Position numbers and translations under genes: made by a program | Part shown: in pieces, positions 24,546 through 32,081 of the stretch | Layout: each line of letters opens with the position of its first letter | How positions within the stretch are numbered: position 1 is the stretch's first letter | The notes under the pieces: generated by a model | The model's database searches: none | What the model was told of the DNA's origin: nothing | What the model saw: the letters and a program-made list of their open reading frames with translations, nothing else | NCBI GenBank assembly: GCA_903837595.1 | Contig: CAILVI010000360.1 | Coordinates: 1-32,811 of the forward strand | Direction of reading: 5' to 3' | From: an uncultured Thiodictyon sp. | GTDB taxonomy: Bacteria; Pseudomonadota; Gammaproteobacteria; Chromatiales; Chromatiaceae | DNA: 32,811 bases

Positions 24546-25652
24546 ATGGCCCGCTACTATCTCAAACCCGTTTTTTGGAATACCGAAAATTACCAGAGAC
24601 CATCGGGTGTAAAAGCGAATAGCGGCTATCCCGCAGCGTATGGGTTCGGTCACGAGGAGTGGAATAATGCAGACTTCATGAGATTTGCCGATCAGGGAAG
24701 AAGCTTCCGAGCTTTCTATGTCGAGGGGCTAGGTAACACACCGGTTGACGACATCGAAGGAGAGGTGTTTCTGTTCATGTATGCCTCGCATGATCGTTTG
24801 CAACAGCTGGTCGGAATCGCTGGGAAAGCAACATGCTTATCGCCTGAAACGCACCAGCAAGAGCGGGAGGATCTCGTCGAGCGTCACGGCATAAAACCGA
24901 AATGGACCGAAGCGTGGGATTTGCCAATTGTTAGGAGACTCCACCAGAACAACCGTAGAGCATTTGAACGATTCTGGAACCATGACGTGCTTTGGACGCC
25001 AAATTGGAAGTGCCCAGAAGACTTGTTTTTCTGGCCGGATACACCGATCACGCTTGACTCGATAAAAATCACGGGAAAACAAAAGCTTCTGACTATGTTC
25101 GGCAGCTACACCGAGATCGCCCCCAATGCCGCGAACCGCATCATGGCGTCAGTCCCAATTGAGGCAAGAACCGCCGCTTGGCTGCGTATCCGCGATGAGA
25201 TAGACGTGTCGTTCGAGGACGCAAGCCCCGATATAGCAGATATCAAAGCGACGCAAGGCATGCGTGCAACTACCAAGCAGGCGCTTATTGACGCCCGTCT
25301 CGGCCAGGGCGATTTCCGGACTCGACTAATGGAACGTTGGGATGCCGCGTGCGCGGTGACAGGCTGCGACCAACCTCAGGTGCTGCGCGCATCGCACATG
25401 AAGCCATGGAGGTCGTCAAACAATACGGATCGGCTGAATCCGCACAACGGCCTCCTGCTTTCGGCAAACGTGGACGCGCTGTGCGATCGGGGGCTCGTAT
25501 CGTTTCAAGACAACGGCACGATGCTGATTTCGACACAGGTCAGTCAAACGACGCGTAACTTGCTGGATCTACCGGCAAGCCTGCGGAAGCAACTTCATGA
25601 CGAGGAAAAAGGCTTTCTCACCTTTCATCGGGACACAATATTCTTGCCATAA
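24546..25652 (+). CDS. HNH endonuclease with distinct N-terminal domain
   Basis: This 368-residue protein has a C-terminal HNH nuclease (HNH_2 type, about 260-335): ACAVTGCDQPQVLRASHMKPW with His284, then LNPHNGLLL and ALCDRGLVSF. The N-terminal half (about 1-200, including YGFGHEEWNNADF and QQLVGIAGKA) has no family I can name with certainty. Its style resembles the sensor part of modification-dependent restriction proteins. The gene is visibly poorer in GC than everything around it, with many AAA, AAT and TTT codons, which suggests recent transfer. It has no partner methylase. A role as an orphan restriction or defence nuclease is inference. Confidence 0.75.
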   Translation: MARYYLKPVFWNTENYQRPSGVKANSGYPAAYGFGHEEWNNADFMRFADQGRSFRAFYVEGLGNTPVDDIEGEVFLFMYASHDRLQQLVGIAGKATCLSPETHQQEREDLVERHGIKPKWTEAWDLPIVRRLHQNNRRAFERFWNHDVLWTPNWKCPEDLFFWPDTPITLDSIKITGKQKLLTMFGSYTEIAPNAANRIMASVPIEARTAAWLRIRDEIDVSFEDASPDIADIKATQGMRATTKQALIDARLGQGDFRTRLMERWDAACAVTGCDQPQVLRASHMKPWRSSNNTDRLNPHNGLLLSANVDALCDRGLVSFQDNGTMLISTQVSQTTRNLLDLPASLRKQLHDEEKGFLTFHRDTIFLP

Positions 25653-26771: not shown

Positions 26772-27467
26772 ATGAAAAATGCAGTCATCCTCTTGAGTGG
26801 CGGCTTGGACTCCACCACCGTGCTGGCCATCGCCAAGGCCGAGGGTTTCATGCCCTATGCCCTCTCCTTCCGCTACGGCCAGCGCCACCTGGTGGAGCTT
26901 GAGTCCGCCCAACGGGTCGCAAAGGCGCTCGGGGTGGCCGAACACGTCATCGCCGACATCGATCTGCACCGCTTCGGCGGCTCGGCACTCACCGCGGACA
27001 TCGCCGTGCCCAAGGGGCGCGACCCGGCGGCCATGGGCGCGGGCATCCCCATCACCTATGTCCCGGCGCGCAACACGGTGTTCCTGTCCTTCGCGCTAGC
27101 CTGGGCGGAGGTCCTGGGGTCCAGCGACCTCTTCATCGGGGTCAATGCGCTCGACTATTCGGGCTATCCCGACTGCCGGCCCGAATACATCGCGGCCTAC
27201 GAGCAGATGGCCAACTTGGCCACCGCGGCCGGGGTCGAGGGCCGCCAGCGCCTCAAGATTCACACCCCGCTGATCGCGCTCAGCAAGGCGCAGATTATCC
27301 AGCGGGGCCTAGCGCTTGGCGTGGACTACGGGCTCACCAGCAGTTGCTATGACCCGGGACCGGACGGGCGCCCCTGCGGCCAGTGCGACTCCTGCCAACT
27401 GCGGGCCAAGGGCTTCGCCGAGGCCGGCGTGGCGGACCCGCTGGCGGCCCGCTTTGGGAACGCCTGA
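26772..27467 (+). CDS. queC: 7-cyano-7-deazaguanine synthase QueC
   Basis: QueC converts 7-carboxy-7-deazaguanine to preQ0 using ATP and ammonia, the last shared step before queuosine-specific reactions. The 231-residue product has the PP-loop SGGLDS at 9-14, [36 protein letters not shown] and the zinc-binding cysteines 192, 202, 205 and 208 ([17 protein letters not shown]). Length is canonical. It starts a three-gene operon: queD begins one base after its stop, and queE overlaps queD. Together these three enzymes take dihydroneopterin triphosphate to preQ0; folE, queF, queA and tgt are not in the window. Confidence 0.96.
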
Positions 27468-27468
27468 G

Positions 27469-28563
27469 ATGGACACACAGCTCATCCACGTCGCCGCCGC
27501 GCCCTTCGAGGCCGCGCGCCGGGTCGCCATCCTCCCCGCCGGACACCGCGCCCGGCGTCTGCACGGACACAGCTTCCTCGCCCGGGTGCGGGCCGCGTTG
27601 CCGGCGGGCTGGGCGCCCTTCCCGGACGGCGAAACCGGCGCACTGACCGAGGCGCTTAGCACCTGTGTCGCTGCACTGGATTACCGGGATCTGAACGAGC
27701 AACTGCCGGTCCCGACCGACGAGAACCTCGCCCGCTGGGTCCGCGCGCACCTGCCCGTGCCCGGGATCAGGACGGTGGGCGTGCAGAGCACCCGCGACCA
27801 GGGGGCGGACCTGGACGGCGCGGACCACTGCCATCTGTGGCGGCGCTTCCGCTTCGAGGCCGCCCACCAGCTGCCGCGCGTCCCCGCGGGCCACCAATGC
27901 GGGCGGATGCATGGCCATGGCTTCGAGGTGATCCTGCACGCCAATCAGGACCTGGCGGGCCAGGACATGGGCCTGGACTTCGACGACCTGGGCGCCGTCT
28001 GGGCACCGCTCCAGGCGCAGCTCCACTACAGTTGCTTAAACGACATCGCGGACCTGGACAATCCCACCAGCGAACGGCTGGCACGTTGGATCTGGCAACG
28101 ACTCAAGCCCGCCCTGCCGGCACTCTCCTGGGTCAGTGTCTACGAGACCGCGACCGCCGGCTGTCACTATGATGGCGCCCACTACCGCATCTGGAAGGAA
28201 CAACGCTTCGAGGGCGCCTTGCGCCTCGCCGCCGCCCCGGCGGACGACCCGCGACGGCGCCTGCACGGTCACAGCTATCTGCTGCGCCTGCACCTCACCG
28301 CGCCGCTCGATGAGGTGCTCGGCTGGACCCTGGACTACGGCGACGTCAAGGCCCTTTTCAAACCGGTCTACGAACGGCTCGACCACCACCGACTCGACGA
28401 GCTGCCGGGTCTGCGCGACGGCGATCCGGGGAGTCTCGCCCGCTGGATGCGCGAGCGGATCGGCACCGCGCTGCCCGCGCTCGACCGCATCGACCTGCAC
28501 GAGACCCCCGGCTGCGGGGCGAGCCTGTGCTGGGGCGAGTTGGGACCGGCCCTGCCCGCATGA
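27469..28563 (+). CDS. queD: Three-domain QueD (6-carboxytetrahydropterin synthase) fusion
   Basis: QueD makes 6-carboxytetrahydropterin in preQ0 synthesis and is normally about 120 residues with one domain; this product is 364 residues with three. Domain 1 (about 5-118) has FEAARR and LHGH (His32, His34) but lacks the first zinc His (Arg17), the catalytic Cys (Ala28) and the Asp-His pair (Asp71-Tyr72). Domain 2 (about 124-238) has FEAAH (His133), Cys144, MHGH (His148, His150) and Glu226, but His186-Tyr187 replaces Asp-His. Domain 3 (about 242-360) lacks the zinc His (Leu251) and Cys (Arg262) but has RLDHH with Asp305-His306, and Glu345. One full site could thus form between domains 2 and 3. 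The ATG at 27469 is one base after queC. Confidence 0.9.
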   Translation: MDTQLIHVAAAPFEAARRVAILPAGHRARRLHGHSFLARVRAALPAGWAPFPDGETGALTEALSTCVAALDYRDLNEQLPVPTDENLARWVRAHLPVPGIRTVGVQSTRDQGADLDGADHCHLWRRFRFEAAHQLPRVPAGHQCGRMHGHGFEVILHANQDLAGQDMGLDFDDLGAVWAPLQAQLHYSCLNDIADLDNPTSERLARWIWQRLKPALPALSWVSVYETATAGCHYDGAHYRIWKEQRFEGALRLAAAPADDPRRRLHGHSYLLRLHLTAPLDEVLGWTLDYGDVKALFKPVYERLDHHRLDELPGLRDGDPGSLARWMRERIGTALPALDRIDLHETPGCGASLCWGELGPALPA

Positions 28564-29201
28564 GCTATAGCGTCAAAGAGGTCTTCTATACCCTGCAGGG
28601 CGAGGGCGCGCACACCGGGCGCGCGGCCGTGTTCTGTCGGTTTGCGGGCTGCAACCTGTGGTCTGGCCGGCAGCAGGACCGGGCAGCGGCGGTCTGCACC
28701 TTCTGCGATACCGATTTTCGCGGGACCGACGGCCCCGGGGGCGGGCACTTCCCGGACGCCGCCGCACTCGCCGACCGCATCCAGGCCGCCTGGCCCGCGG
28801 ACGCAGAGCCCGGCGGGACGCCCTATGTGGTCTGCACCGGCGGTGAACCGCTGCTGCAATTGGACCCGCCACTCATCGCGGCCCTGCATGAGCGTGGCTT
28901 CGAGATCGCGGTGGAGACCAACGGCACGCAGCCGGCCCCGCCCGGCATCGACTGGGTCTGCGTCAGCCCCAAGGCGGCGGCGCCGTTGCGGCTCCTGGCC
29001 GGCGATGAGCTCAAGCTCGTCTACCCGCAGCCGGAGGCACTGCCGGAGCGCTTCACCGCGCTCGCCTTTCGGCACTTCTTCCTCCAACCGATGGACGGCC
29101 CCAAGCTGCGCGCCAACACCGCGCAGGCCATCGCCTACTGCCAGGCGCATCCGCGCTGGCGGCTGAGGCTACAGACACACAAGCTGCTGGGCATTCCATG
29201 A
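28560..29201 (+). CDS. queE: 7-carboxy-7-deazaguanine synthase QueE
   Basis: QueE is a radical-SAM enzyme that contracts the ring of 6-carboxytetrahydropterin to 7-carboxy-7-deazaguanine. The 213-residue product opens with SVKEVFYTLQGEGAHTGR, typical of QueE. It carries the unusual long cluster motif Cys31-x14-Cys46-x2-Cys49 seen in one QueE subgroup including the E. coli protein. VCTGGEPLLQ and VETNGTQ follow, and HKLLGIP at the end is standard. The ATG overlaps the queD stop (ATGA), so production is coupled to the QueD fusion that feeds it. Confidence 0.95.
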   Translation: MSYSVKEVFYTLQGEGAHTGRAAVFCRFAGCNLWSGRQQDRAAAVCTFCDTDFRGTDGPGGGHFPDAAALADRIQAAWPADAEPGGTPYVVCTGGEPLLQLDPPLIAALHERGFEIAVETNGTQPAPPGIDWVCVSPKAAAPLRLLAGDELKLVYPQPEALPERFTALAFRHFFLQPMDGPKLRANTAQAIAYCQAHPRWRLRLQTHKLLGIP

Positions 29202-30200: not shown

Positions 30201-30545
30201 ATGGAGACCGTCAACGTCAGCGGACTCAAGAACAACCCCAGCGAGGCCCTGCGCAAGTCGCACCGGGACCTGGTTGTCGTCATGAACCGGGACAAGCCCG
30301 ATGCGCTGATGGTCGGGGTCGAACTGGCCGGCGTGTTGGACGCGAAGGGCGTCAGACCAGCGCTGGCCACAGCGCTGTTCCGTGACGGCAACCTGTCGCT
30401 GGCGCGCGCCGCCCGGTTGGCGGAGATGGCGCTGGGCGAGTTCGTGGCCCACCTCTCACGTCTGGGGATTGCCGTGGTGAATCTGAACGCGGACGAGGCC
30501 GAGCGAGACCTGGATACCCTGGAGTCATGGCTCGCCTCGTCCTGA
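30201..30545 (+). CDS. UPF0175 family antitoxin
   Basis: This 114-residue protein has a Phd-like N terminus (NVSGLKNNPSEALRKSH, then VVVMNRDKPDALMV) and a UPF0175 helix-turn-helix segment (about 55-90, with LFRDGNLSLARAARLAEMAL). UPF0175 proteins are usually encoded ahead of DUF3368 PIN-like toxins, and that is the case here. They probably neutralise the toxin and repress the operon. The gene overlaps the next one by 19 bases. The ATG at 30201 is preceded by GGAG. Confidence 0.82.
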   Translation: METVNVSGLKNNPSEALRKSHRDLVVVMNRDKPDALMVGVELAGVLDAKGVRPALATALFRDGNLSLARAARLAEMALGEFVAHLSRLGIAVVNLNADEAERDLDTLESWLASS

Positions 30546-31045
30546 CCGACGCAAGCCCGCTGATTGGGCTGGCGCGCATCGACGGACTGCCGTGGCTGGG
30601 CGAACTGTTCGGTGTGGTCTGGATGCCCCCGACGGTCCGCCGGGAAGTGCTGCCGAACCGCGGCTTGCGCGACGAGACGGCGATCCTCGCAGCCGAGGCT
30701 GCGGGCTGTCTGAAGCAGACCGATGCAACCCCCAGCGCCGTGGTGCTCCCCGACCTCGATGAGGGAGAGGCCGCCTGCATTCGTGTCGCCCTGGCCCACC
30801 CCGGACCCAGCCTGGTGTTGATGGACGAGCGCGCGGGCCGTGCGGTCGCCATGGAGCATGGCCTGGCCGTGGCCGGCACCGCGGCGATCATCGGGATGGC
30901 CAAGACGCGAGGGCTGATCGGCTCGGCGCGGGCGGTCTTTGCACGTCTGCACGGCTCCGACTTCCGAATCTCGGCGCAGGTGATCGAGACGGCGCTGCGA
31001 CGCGTCGGCGAGATAGAATCAAATCGTTGCGCAACGCGGGATTGA
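30527..31045 (+). CDS. DUF3368 PIN-like toxin
   Basis: This 172-residue protein is of the DUF3368 family, a PIN-like fold related to VapC ribonucleases. The start LVLTDASPLIGLARI holds Asp8; Glu40 (VRREVL), Glu79/Glu81 (DEGEAACI) and Asp100 (LMDERAGR) fit the acidic site. The C-terminal TAAIIGMAKTRGLI is typical of the family. It overlaps the antitoxin gene by 19 bases and is followed after 10 bases by a Fic gene. Toxin function is inferred from family and context; these proteins are less studied than VapC. Confidence 0.83.
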   Translation: MARLVLTDASPLIGLARIDGLPWLGELFGVVWMPPTVRREVLPNRGLRDETAILAAEAAGCLKQTDATPSAVVLPDLDEGEAACIRVALAHPGPSLVLMDERAGRAVAMEHGLAVAGTAAIIGMAKTRGLIGSARAVFARLHGSDFRISAQVIETALRRVGEIESNRCATRD

Positions 31046-31055
31046 GGCGAAGCCC

Positions 31056-32081
31056 ATGGTCGCCCCCTACTCACCACCCTTCGCGATCACCCCCGCCATC
31101 GTCACGCTCATCGCCGACATCGCCGAGCGGGTCGGCCATTATGCCCAGGCTGCGGATTCCGCCGCCGCCCTGCGGCTGCGGCGTATCAATCGCATACGGA
31201 CCATTCAGGGTTCGTTGGCGATTGAAGGCAATACCTTGAGCGAGCAGCAGATCACCGCCATCCTGGAGGGGAAGCGGGTGATTGCCCCACCCCGCGAGAT
31301 CCAGGAGGTGCGCAACGCGCTGCTGGCCTACGACCGGTTCGCGACCTGGAACCCGGACTTGGAGGATGACCTGCTCGCCGCCCATGCCCTGCTGATGGCC
31401 GGCCTGGTGGATCGGCCTGGCGCTTATCGCGGCGGTGGTGTCGGGGTCATGTCGGGTAGCACGGTGGTCCACATGGCGCCACCAGCCAGCCGCGTCCGCG
31501 GCTTGATGGAGAGTCTCTTCAGCTGGCTGCACGGTTGCGAGGTCCACCCCCTGATCGCCAGCTGTGTCTTCCATTACGAATTTGAATTCATCCACCCCTT
31601 TGACGACGGCAACGGGCGCATGGGTCGGCTATGGCAAAGCCTGATCCTGAGCCGCTGGAAACCGCTTTTTGCCGATCTGCCGGTCGAGAGCATCGTCCAT
31701 ACCCATCAGGACGACTATTATCGGGCGCTGGCTGACAGTACCCGCGAGGGCGCATCGACTCCTTTTATCGTCTTCATGTTGGGTGTGATCCGTGAGGCCC
31801 TGGGGGCCCACCCGACCGAACAAGTGACCGCACAAGCCACCGAACAAGTTCGGCGACTACTGGCGTCGATGGGGGACGGCTGCTACTCGGCCAAGTCATT
31901 GATGGTGCTTCTAAGGTTATCCCATCGCCCAACCTTTCTCTACGACTATCTGCAGCCGGCGCTCGCCGCTGGTTGGCTGGAACAGACACATCCGGACACG
32001 CCGAAGAGTCCCAGACAGCAATACCGTCTGACCCGGTCAGGACAACAGGTGGCACAGGACCTTACCCAGGACACCCTATGA
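31056..32081 (+). CDS. Fic family protein (AMPylase) with N-terminal inhibitory motif
   Basis: Fic proteins transfer AMP or related groups to target proteins. The 341-residue product has the complete core motif HPFDDGNGR at 180-188, with catalytic His180. In the N-terminal part the autoinhibitory motif [S/T]xxxE[G/N] is present as SLAIEGN (Ser53, Glu57, Gly58), so this is a class II, self-inhibited Fic. The preceding LRLRRINRIRTIQG and following TLSEQQITAIL are typical of this group. Residues about 260-341 look like a winged-helix domain ending in a QYRLTRSGQQ wing. GAGG lies about 11 bases upstream. It follows the DUF3368 gene by 10 bases, so it is probably part of the same transcript. Confidence 0.92.
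   Translation: MVAPYSPPFAITPAIVTLIADIAERVGHYAQAADSAAALRLRRINRIRTIQGSLAIEGNTLSEQQITAILEGKRVIAPPREIQEVRNALLAYDRFATWNPDLEDDLLAAHALLMAGLVDRPGAYRGGGVGVMSGSTVVHMAPPASRVRGLMESLFSWLHGCEVHPLIASCVFHYEFEFIHPFDDGNGRMGRLWQSLILSRWKPLFADLPVESIVHTHQDDYYRALADSTREGASTPFIVFMLGVIREALGAHPTEQVTAQATEQVRRLLASMGDGCYSAKSLMVLLRLSHRPTFLYDYLQPALAAGWLEQTHPDTPKSPRQQYRLTRSGQQVAQDLTQDTL

Follow-up and report, generated by a model that had tools for sequence, protein, structure and literature searches.

We identified a gene for a three-domain QueD (queD3; 27469..28563 on the forward strand, stop included) in the window, i.e., the whole 32,811-nucleotide stretch of DNA that was analysed. QueD, which serves to make a modified tRNA base, is usually a hexamer of identical one-domain subunits. 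Judging from sequence, we put at roughly three in four the probability that queD3 is the QueD of the preQ0/queuosine pathway and works as a covalent pseudo-trimer, with its sole kept active site between domains 2 and 3.

Together, the three fused QueD domains would replace a trimer of the normal hexamer, and of the three sites that a trimer can form, only one would be retained. Its A-half, as termed here, would come from domain 2 and comprise zinc, the pterin anchor and the catalytic Cys. Its B-half or helper half would come from domain 3 and comprise Lys243, the beginning of helix 1, and Asp305-His306, by which the Cys would be activated. The loss of the other two sites would be matched, the A-half of domain 1 going with the B-half of domain 2, and the A-half of domain 3 with the B-half of domain 1. 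Two chains probably stack head to head, which would give two sites per particle versus six.

The gene and its operon

The open frame runs from an ATG at 27469 to a stop at 28561-28563 and encodes 364 residues. The Pfam model for PTPS (PF01242) matched three stretches, with 190 bits for the whole protein against a gathering cut-off of 22.4. This confirms the initial annotation made from the DNA, according to which three QueD-like domains lie in one 364-residue chain. Domain 1 comprises residues 1-117 (27469..27819), domain 2 residues 118-237 (27820..28179) and domain 3 residues 238-357 (28180..28539), domains 1 and 3 being supported by alignment and by conservation in 100 homologous proteins; all window features described here are on the forward strand. 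The NCBIfam QueD equivalog model (TIGR03367) scored 139.5 bits summed across three stretches, which passes its cut-off of 89.25, and the broader TIGR00039 model fell under its cut-off (102.6 of 125.5 bits). Only PTPS/QueD families were present among the Pfam and NCBIfam matches of the queD3 protein, and the QueF sequence family was absent from these. One domain per chain is a trait that is usual for QueD rather than defining, and queD3, with three, does not share it. The QueD family model labels the triple chain plain QueD and so hides its architecture.

The gene lies in a tight operon with the order queC-queD3-queE. Upstream, queC (26772..27467, 231 aa; PF06508, 248.2 bits; TIGR00364, 201.1 bits versus a cut-off of 150.3) ends one base before the queD3 ATG. 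Downstream, the ATG of queE (28560..29201, 213 aa; TIGR04508, 354.9 bits versus a cut-off of 240) overlaps the queD3 stop by 4 bases. Among 79 homologous loci (which include one frameshifted copy, L106), queC is immediately 5' in 66 and queE immediately 3' in 66, and 700 bases or more are available on the queC side in 75 and on the queE side in 76. No preQ1 riboswitch was found in the window at Rfam gathering thresholds; two tRNAs were found. The flanks of the operon encode an HNH_2 nuclease (24546-25652, +), for which the match to a phosphorothioate-DNA restriction enzyme is far under cut-off, and a DUF3368 protein adjoining a Fic-domain protein (30527-32081, +).

Two half-sites in domains 2 and 3

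Active-site residues were assigned via alignment to E. coli QueD (H16, C27, H31, H33, D70, H71 and E110), and every residue named in the initial annotation was found at the number given to it. Conservation was counted in 100 distinct, full triple proteins; one of them is the window's own, and the least similar shares 46% identity with it. Identical ORFs were merged, and the frameshifted copy (L106) and a gene with broken frames (L105) were left out.

Domain 2 carries the zinc and pterin half. The first zinc His (His133, 27865..27867), the catalytic Cys (Cys144, 27898..27900), the second and third zinc His (His148-Gly-His150, 27910..27918), Pro199-Thr-Ser-Glu202 at the start of helix 2 (28063..28074) and the pterin anchor Glu226 (28144..28146) are all present in 100 of 100 proteins. 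We take the Pro199-Glu202 stretch to be part of the pterin pocket; its domain 3 equivalents are found in at most 8 of 100 per position. The CxxxHGH motif of PTPS-I (as given in PMC5041015) extends from Cys144 to His150 and occurs in domain 2 only.

Domain 3 carries the helper half, also in 100 of 100 proteins. This consists of Lys243 in the first strand (28195..28197; E. coli Lys8), Trp286 and Asp289 in the stretch before helix 1 (Trp286 to Asp289, 28324..28335; E. coli Trp51 and Asp54), Phe297, and Asp305-His306 (28381..28386), the pair that would complete the site. With Lys243, Gly285-Trp286, Asp289 and Phe297 included, the helper half is wider than Asp-His. Equivalents of Lys8 occur in 100 proteins in domain 3, 4 in domain 2 and 0 in domain 1, those of Trp51 in 100, 0 and 0, respectively, and those of Asp54 in 100, 79 and 6.

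In domain 3 of the window protein, Leu251 replaces the first zinc His and Arg262 replaces the Cys, and Asp305-His306 is retained, exactly as initially annotated. The first zinc His and Cys occur together in domain 1 or domain 3 in none of the 100 proteins, and the complete set of QueD residues (three zinc His, Cys, Asp-His and Glu) is present once per chain, split between domains 2 and 3, in every one of them. This complementary pattern exceeds chance, and the losses in homologues are non-random. The proposal that the fusion rebuilds one complete site is supported as far as sequence can test it.

Other parts of the initial annotation hold for some residues and not for others. Domain 2 was said to be alone in keeping the zinc His, Cys and Glu, which is true of the first His and the Cys; however, HGH (the second and third zinc His) is kept by domains 1 and 3 in 90-100 of 100 proteins, and Glu345 of domain 3 (the Glu226 equivalent) in 70 of 100. 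Thus, domains 1 and 3 have not lost every zinc ligand; their losses are the first zinc His and the Cys. The reported loss of Asp-His from domain 2 applies to the window protein (His186-Tyr187) but varies in the family, the pair at this place being HH in 24, DH in 19, DY in 13, HL in 11 and other combinations in the rest. Domain 1 was described as having lost most of both halves. It is indeed without the first zinc His, the Cys, Asp-His and the equivalents of Glu110, Lys8 and Trp51, but it keeps HGH. The residues at the catalytic places of domain 1 in the window protein are R17, A28, D71-Y72 and S107, and in the 100 proteins the pair at the Asp-His place is DY (77), NY (21), RH (1) or DH (1).

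Domain 1 may plausibly be only structural, yet it has invariant residues of its own despite its loss of catalysis. Asp84 (27718-27720; 100 of 100) and Tyr72 (27682-27684; 98 of 100) are non-canonical, and His32-Gly33-His34 (27562-27570) is conserved in the same range (98-100 of 100).

The half-sites were also compared at 58 positions with 90% or higher conservation among single-domain QueDs (24 proteins and that of E. coli). At 12 of these, domain 2 keeps the residue in at least 90% of proteins and domain 3 in at most 50% (H16, P19, H25, C27, F35, N75, N82, P83, T84, S85, E86 and W93; E. coli numbering), and at 7 the reverse is found, with domain 3 kept and domain 2 lost (K8, S34, G50, W51, F62, D70 and H71). 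At the 90% level, 11 positions are kept by both domains and 18 by neither. The single-domain references were selected for their similarity to domain 2 and to the E. coli protein (over 140 bits), a bias toward domain 2 despite which domain 3 still wins at positions 41-72. The difference between block 41-72 and the other positions was equalled by 3 of 20,000 shuffles and, among 58 circular shifts, by the unshifted arrangement only; as the limits of this block were chosen after seeing the data, the argument rests on the per-residue counts.

These counts bear on the possibility that domain 2 alone is active, with the domain 2 copies of three chains trimerising and domains 1 and 3 being decaying passengers. 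Of the three domains, domain 2 resembles QueD most, by a wide margin, and has its own Asp-His in 19 of 100 proteins, but it is without this pair in 81 and without the Lys8 equivalent in 96. Both are present in domain 3 of all 100, as is not expected of a passenger, and we find this explanation barely credible. Some of the same observations nonetheless count against a single site between domains 2 and 3. Glu345 and the HGH of domains 1 and 3 would be unneeded there, and the Asp-His that some domain 2 sequences retain and the 18 positions kept by neither domain are further points of this kind.

If the preferred reading of one site shared by domains 2 and 3 is correct, queD3 would be a natural dissection of a symmetric enzyme. 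Since one half-site of each kind is kept, conservation alone would reveal the side of the interface from which each residue acts. The protein would illustrate how gene fusion can make an asymmetric enzyme, with one-third as many sites, out of a symmetric homo-oligomer, and would be a ready system for the question of why fewer sites suffice.

Location of the site and related T-fold enzymes

The AlphaFold2 model of the queD3 chain (pLDDT 94.1, pTM 0.91) has three domains, each consisting of two strands, two helices and two strands. The last strand of one domain runs directly into the first strand of the next (111-116 into 120-133, and 230-234 into 239-251). Pairs of domains in the model superpose on the tandem T-folds of urate oxidase, domains 2 and 3 doing so over 215 residues at 4.5 A. 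Closure of the urate oxidase barrel is described as involving pairing of the C-terminal strand with the N-terminal strand of the other subunit, where the active sites are located (PMC5138847). The substrate is held by Arg176 and residue 228, with Lys10* and Thr57* contributed by the symmetric subunit, according to PMC2490695. By this interface arrangement, the anchoring domain precedes the helper domain in the chain. Lys243 and Trp286-Asp289 appear to occupy places similar to those of Lys10*/Thr57*, a likening made by secondary structure and not a computed superposition.

We infer the site geometry, assembly and activity of queD3. From the T-fold geometry of urate oxidase and the matched losses of half-sites, the site would be placed at the interface of domains 2 and 3, where both halves are kept. 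At the interface of domains 1 and 2, the A-half of domain 1 would be lost and the B-half of domain 2 mostly lost, and at that of domains 3 and 1 both would be lost. Pairing in the reverse direction would give no complete site, though both halves are invariant. The Cys and the Asp-His of rat PTPS reportedly come from two subunits (an 'intersubunit catalytic triad').

The site might also form in trans within a dimer of pseudo-trimers, with domain 2 of one chain meeting domain 3 of its partner. PTPS sites are described as sitting between three monomers of the hexamer (PMC7546909), so that the other ring is near each site, and cis and trans arrangements are indistinguishable by conservation alone. 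However, domain 2 leads directly into domain 3, and the resulting contact of last and first strands corresponds to the position of the urate oxidase site; formation in trans is thus unlikely.

The QueD proteins of E. coli and P. aeruginosa (PTPS-I; PDB 4ntk, 4ntm and 2oba) have both halves in one domain, whereas queD3 splits them. Bimodular QueF (V. cholerae, E. coli) resembles queD3 in its tandem T-folds, its interdomain site and its pathway, and is described as having the QueF motif in one domain and Cys and Glu in the other (PMC5372742). Unlike queD3, it has two modules with the helper first and the anchor second, catalyses nitrile reduction and, in the same account, has no central tunnel. 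Urate oxidase is similar to queD3 in that it has tandem T-folds, sites at the interface of last and first strands, and Lys10*/Thr57* opposite the anchoring residues (PMC2490695). It differs in being a cofactor-free oxidase of two domains, with the site between chains rather than within one. Split-site tandem T-folds are therefore already known (bimodular QueF, urate oxidase), and the three-domain QueD is a variation of these. We found no description of a three-domain QueD in the open-licence PMC literature.

Other PTPS genes, two-domain forms and distribution

The CxxxHGH motif is given in PMC5041015 as the mark of PTPS-I (QueD) and ExxHGH as that of PTPS-III (folate type); proteins with CExxHGH can serve both the folate and queuosine pathways, according to the same source. 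A PF01242 search of the window genome identified queD3 and one paralogue with the folate-type ExxHGH, and no separate complete queD, a gene that the initial annotation had raised as a potential objection to its proposal. In a sample of 57 genomes of the family, 21 have the triple form, 24 a two-domain form, 8 a single-domain form with CxxxHGH, 1 an odd single form and 3 none. These architectures were counted from match rows; all 8 CxxxHGH singles were read, and 6 of the 24 two-domain cases (G008, G698, G700, G701, G706 and G708) were assigned by frame length and match pattern only. The triple and two-domain forms occur together in no genome among the 57, and queC is strong (at least 186 bits) in 55. 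The 21 triple-bearing genomes contain 15 extra PTPS genes, of which 10 have ExxHGH, 4 RLHGA, 1 CxxxxHGH and 0 CxxxHGH.

These genes bear on whether the chain is a QueD at all. It could be inactive, a scaffold or an enzyme for another reaction, with the QueD step carried out by another protein. The invariant but non-canonical Asp84 and Tyr72 of domain 1 would fit such a role. In addition, a congener from outside the 57-genome sample (G004) encodes, beside its triple QueD, a short single-domain frame (L034) with NCEKPHGH, i.e., the CExxHGH hybrid motif of PTPS-I/III that is able to serve both pathways (PMC5041015). Given this gene, the triple form is not always the sole QueD candidate of a genome. 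We nevertheless regard a function other than QueD as highly improbable. The chain as a whole has a complete and invariant set of catalytic residues for QueD, the gene lies in a queC-queD-queE operon, and neither the ExxHGH paralogue of the window genome nor any of the 15 extra genes has CxxxHGH. The CExxHGH gene of G004 and a CxxxHGG fusion gene of another congener beyond that sample (L033 in G006, also with the triple form) are further points against the one-site model.

The G006 gene is one of several ROS/MUCR-PTPS fusions (L195:751-2022, +; L212; L033) in which the PTPS domain lies behind about 250 residues with a weak N-terminal ROS/MUCR match, below cut-off. Their motif reads CxxLHGG, with one zinc His changed to Gly. 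The PTPS-like proteins with RLHGA (L197-L200), which occur in triple-bearing genomes, have lost the Cys and the third zinc His.

Many genomes of the same family that are without the triple form encode a two-domain PTPS of about 280-350 aa (L177-L194; e.g., L191, minus strand). Nearly all genomes with this form also carry queC, and neither queC nor queE was found in the flanks of the two-domain loci (about 1 kb on each side). All 18 loci read have GMxxDF...DH in domain 1, and 17 of the 18 have a Cys-HGH motif in the second domain. Alignment of 17 proteins shows no variation in the Asp-His of domain 1 or in the domain 2 residues Cys, HGH, T-x-E-N and Glu-Gly. The one protein scanned scored 57.1 of 89.25 bits, under the QueD cut-off. 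Like triple QueD, the two-domain PTPS belongs to the PF01242 family and has a complementary split of half-sites; unlike it, the halves are in reverse order (helper first) and the motif is CxxxxHGH. The two-domain protein seems to represent another, independent splitting of the PTPS site. Should its halves come together, it would be a second division of labour, with the chain order reversed as in bimodular QueF.

We tentatively suggest that PTPS fusions may lead repeatedly to a division of labour between anchor and helper, in triple QueD and separately in two-domain PTPS, and that domain 1 of the triple form, once released from catalysis, may have acquired a new fixed role. It could, for instance, form the third-subunit wall at the site of the other chain, or dock a partner enzyme.

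Judging by its matches, triple QueD occurs in purple sulfur bacteria and some relatives. Among named homologues, one from a Thiodictyon MAG is the closest (94% identity), which makes a purple sulfur bacterium of the Chromatiaceae the probable host of the window. Many Chromatiaceae, Plasticicumulans, Chromobacterium, Aquitalea and marine gammaproteobacterial MAGs are among the named hosts. The triple form also turns up in single MAGs labelled Nitrospinaceae, Planctomycetota and Magnetococcales, which may be binning errors. A triple-length match was found in at least 14 of 398 genomes sampled from the phylum, the window's own genome included. Among the best 80 of 170 viral places encoding relatives, no match was triple-length (the longest was 444 bases), and the best viral structure matches are of single-domain size or weak. 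Of 72,556 plasmid records searched, 182 match, and in none is 80% of the protein covered at a single location.

In a tree of 148 domain sequences (38 triples, 25 singles and 9 distant singles), which is midpoint-rooted and has few columns and long branches, domain 1 forms a single clade (support 100/100), as does domain 3 (100/99). Domain 2 forms a grade, with Chromobacterium-type rows separate from the remaining domain 2 rows. The simplest reading is that the fusion arose once. In Chromatium okenii (L105), the triple gene is split into several frames, and Thiorhodococcus minor has, along with an intact triple gene (L044), a second, frameshifted copy (L106) on a short contig.
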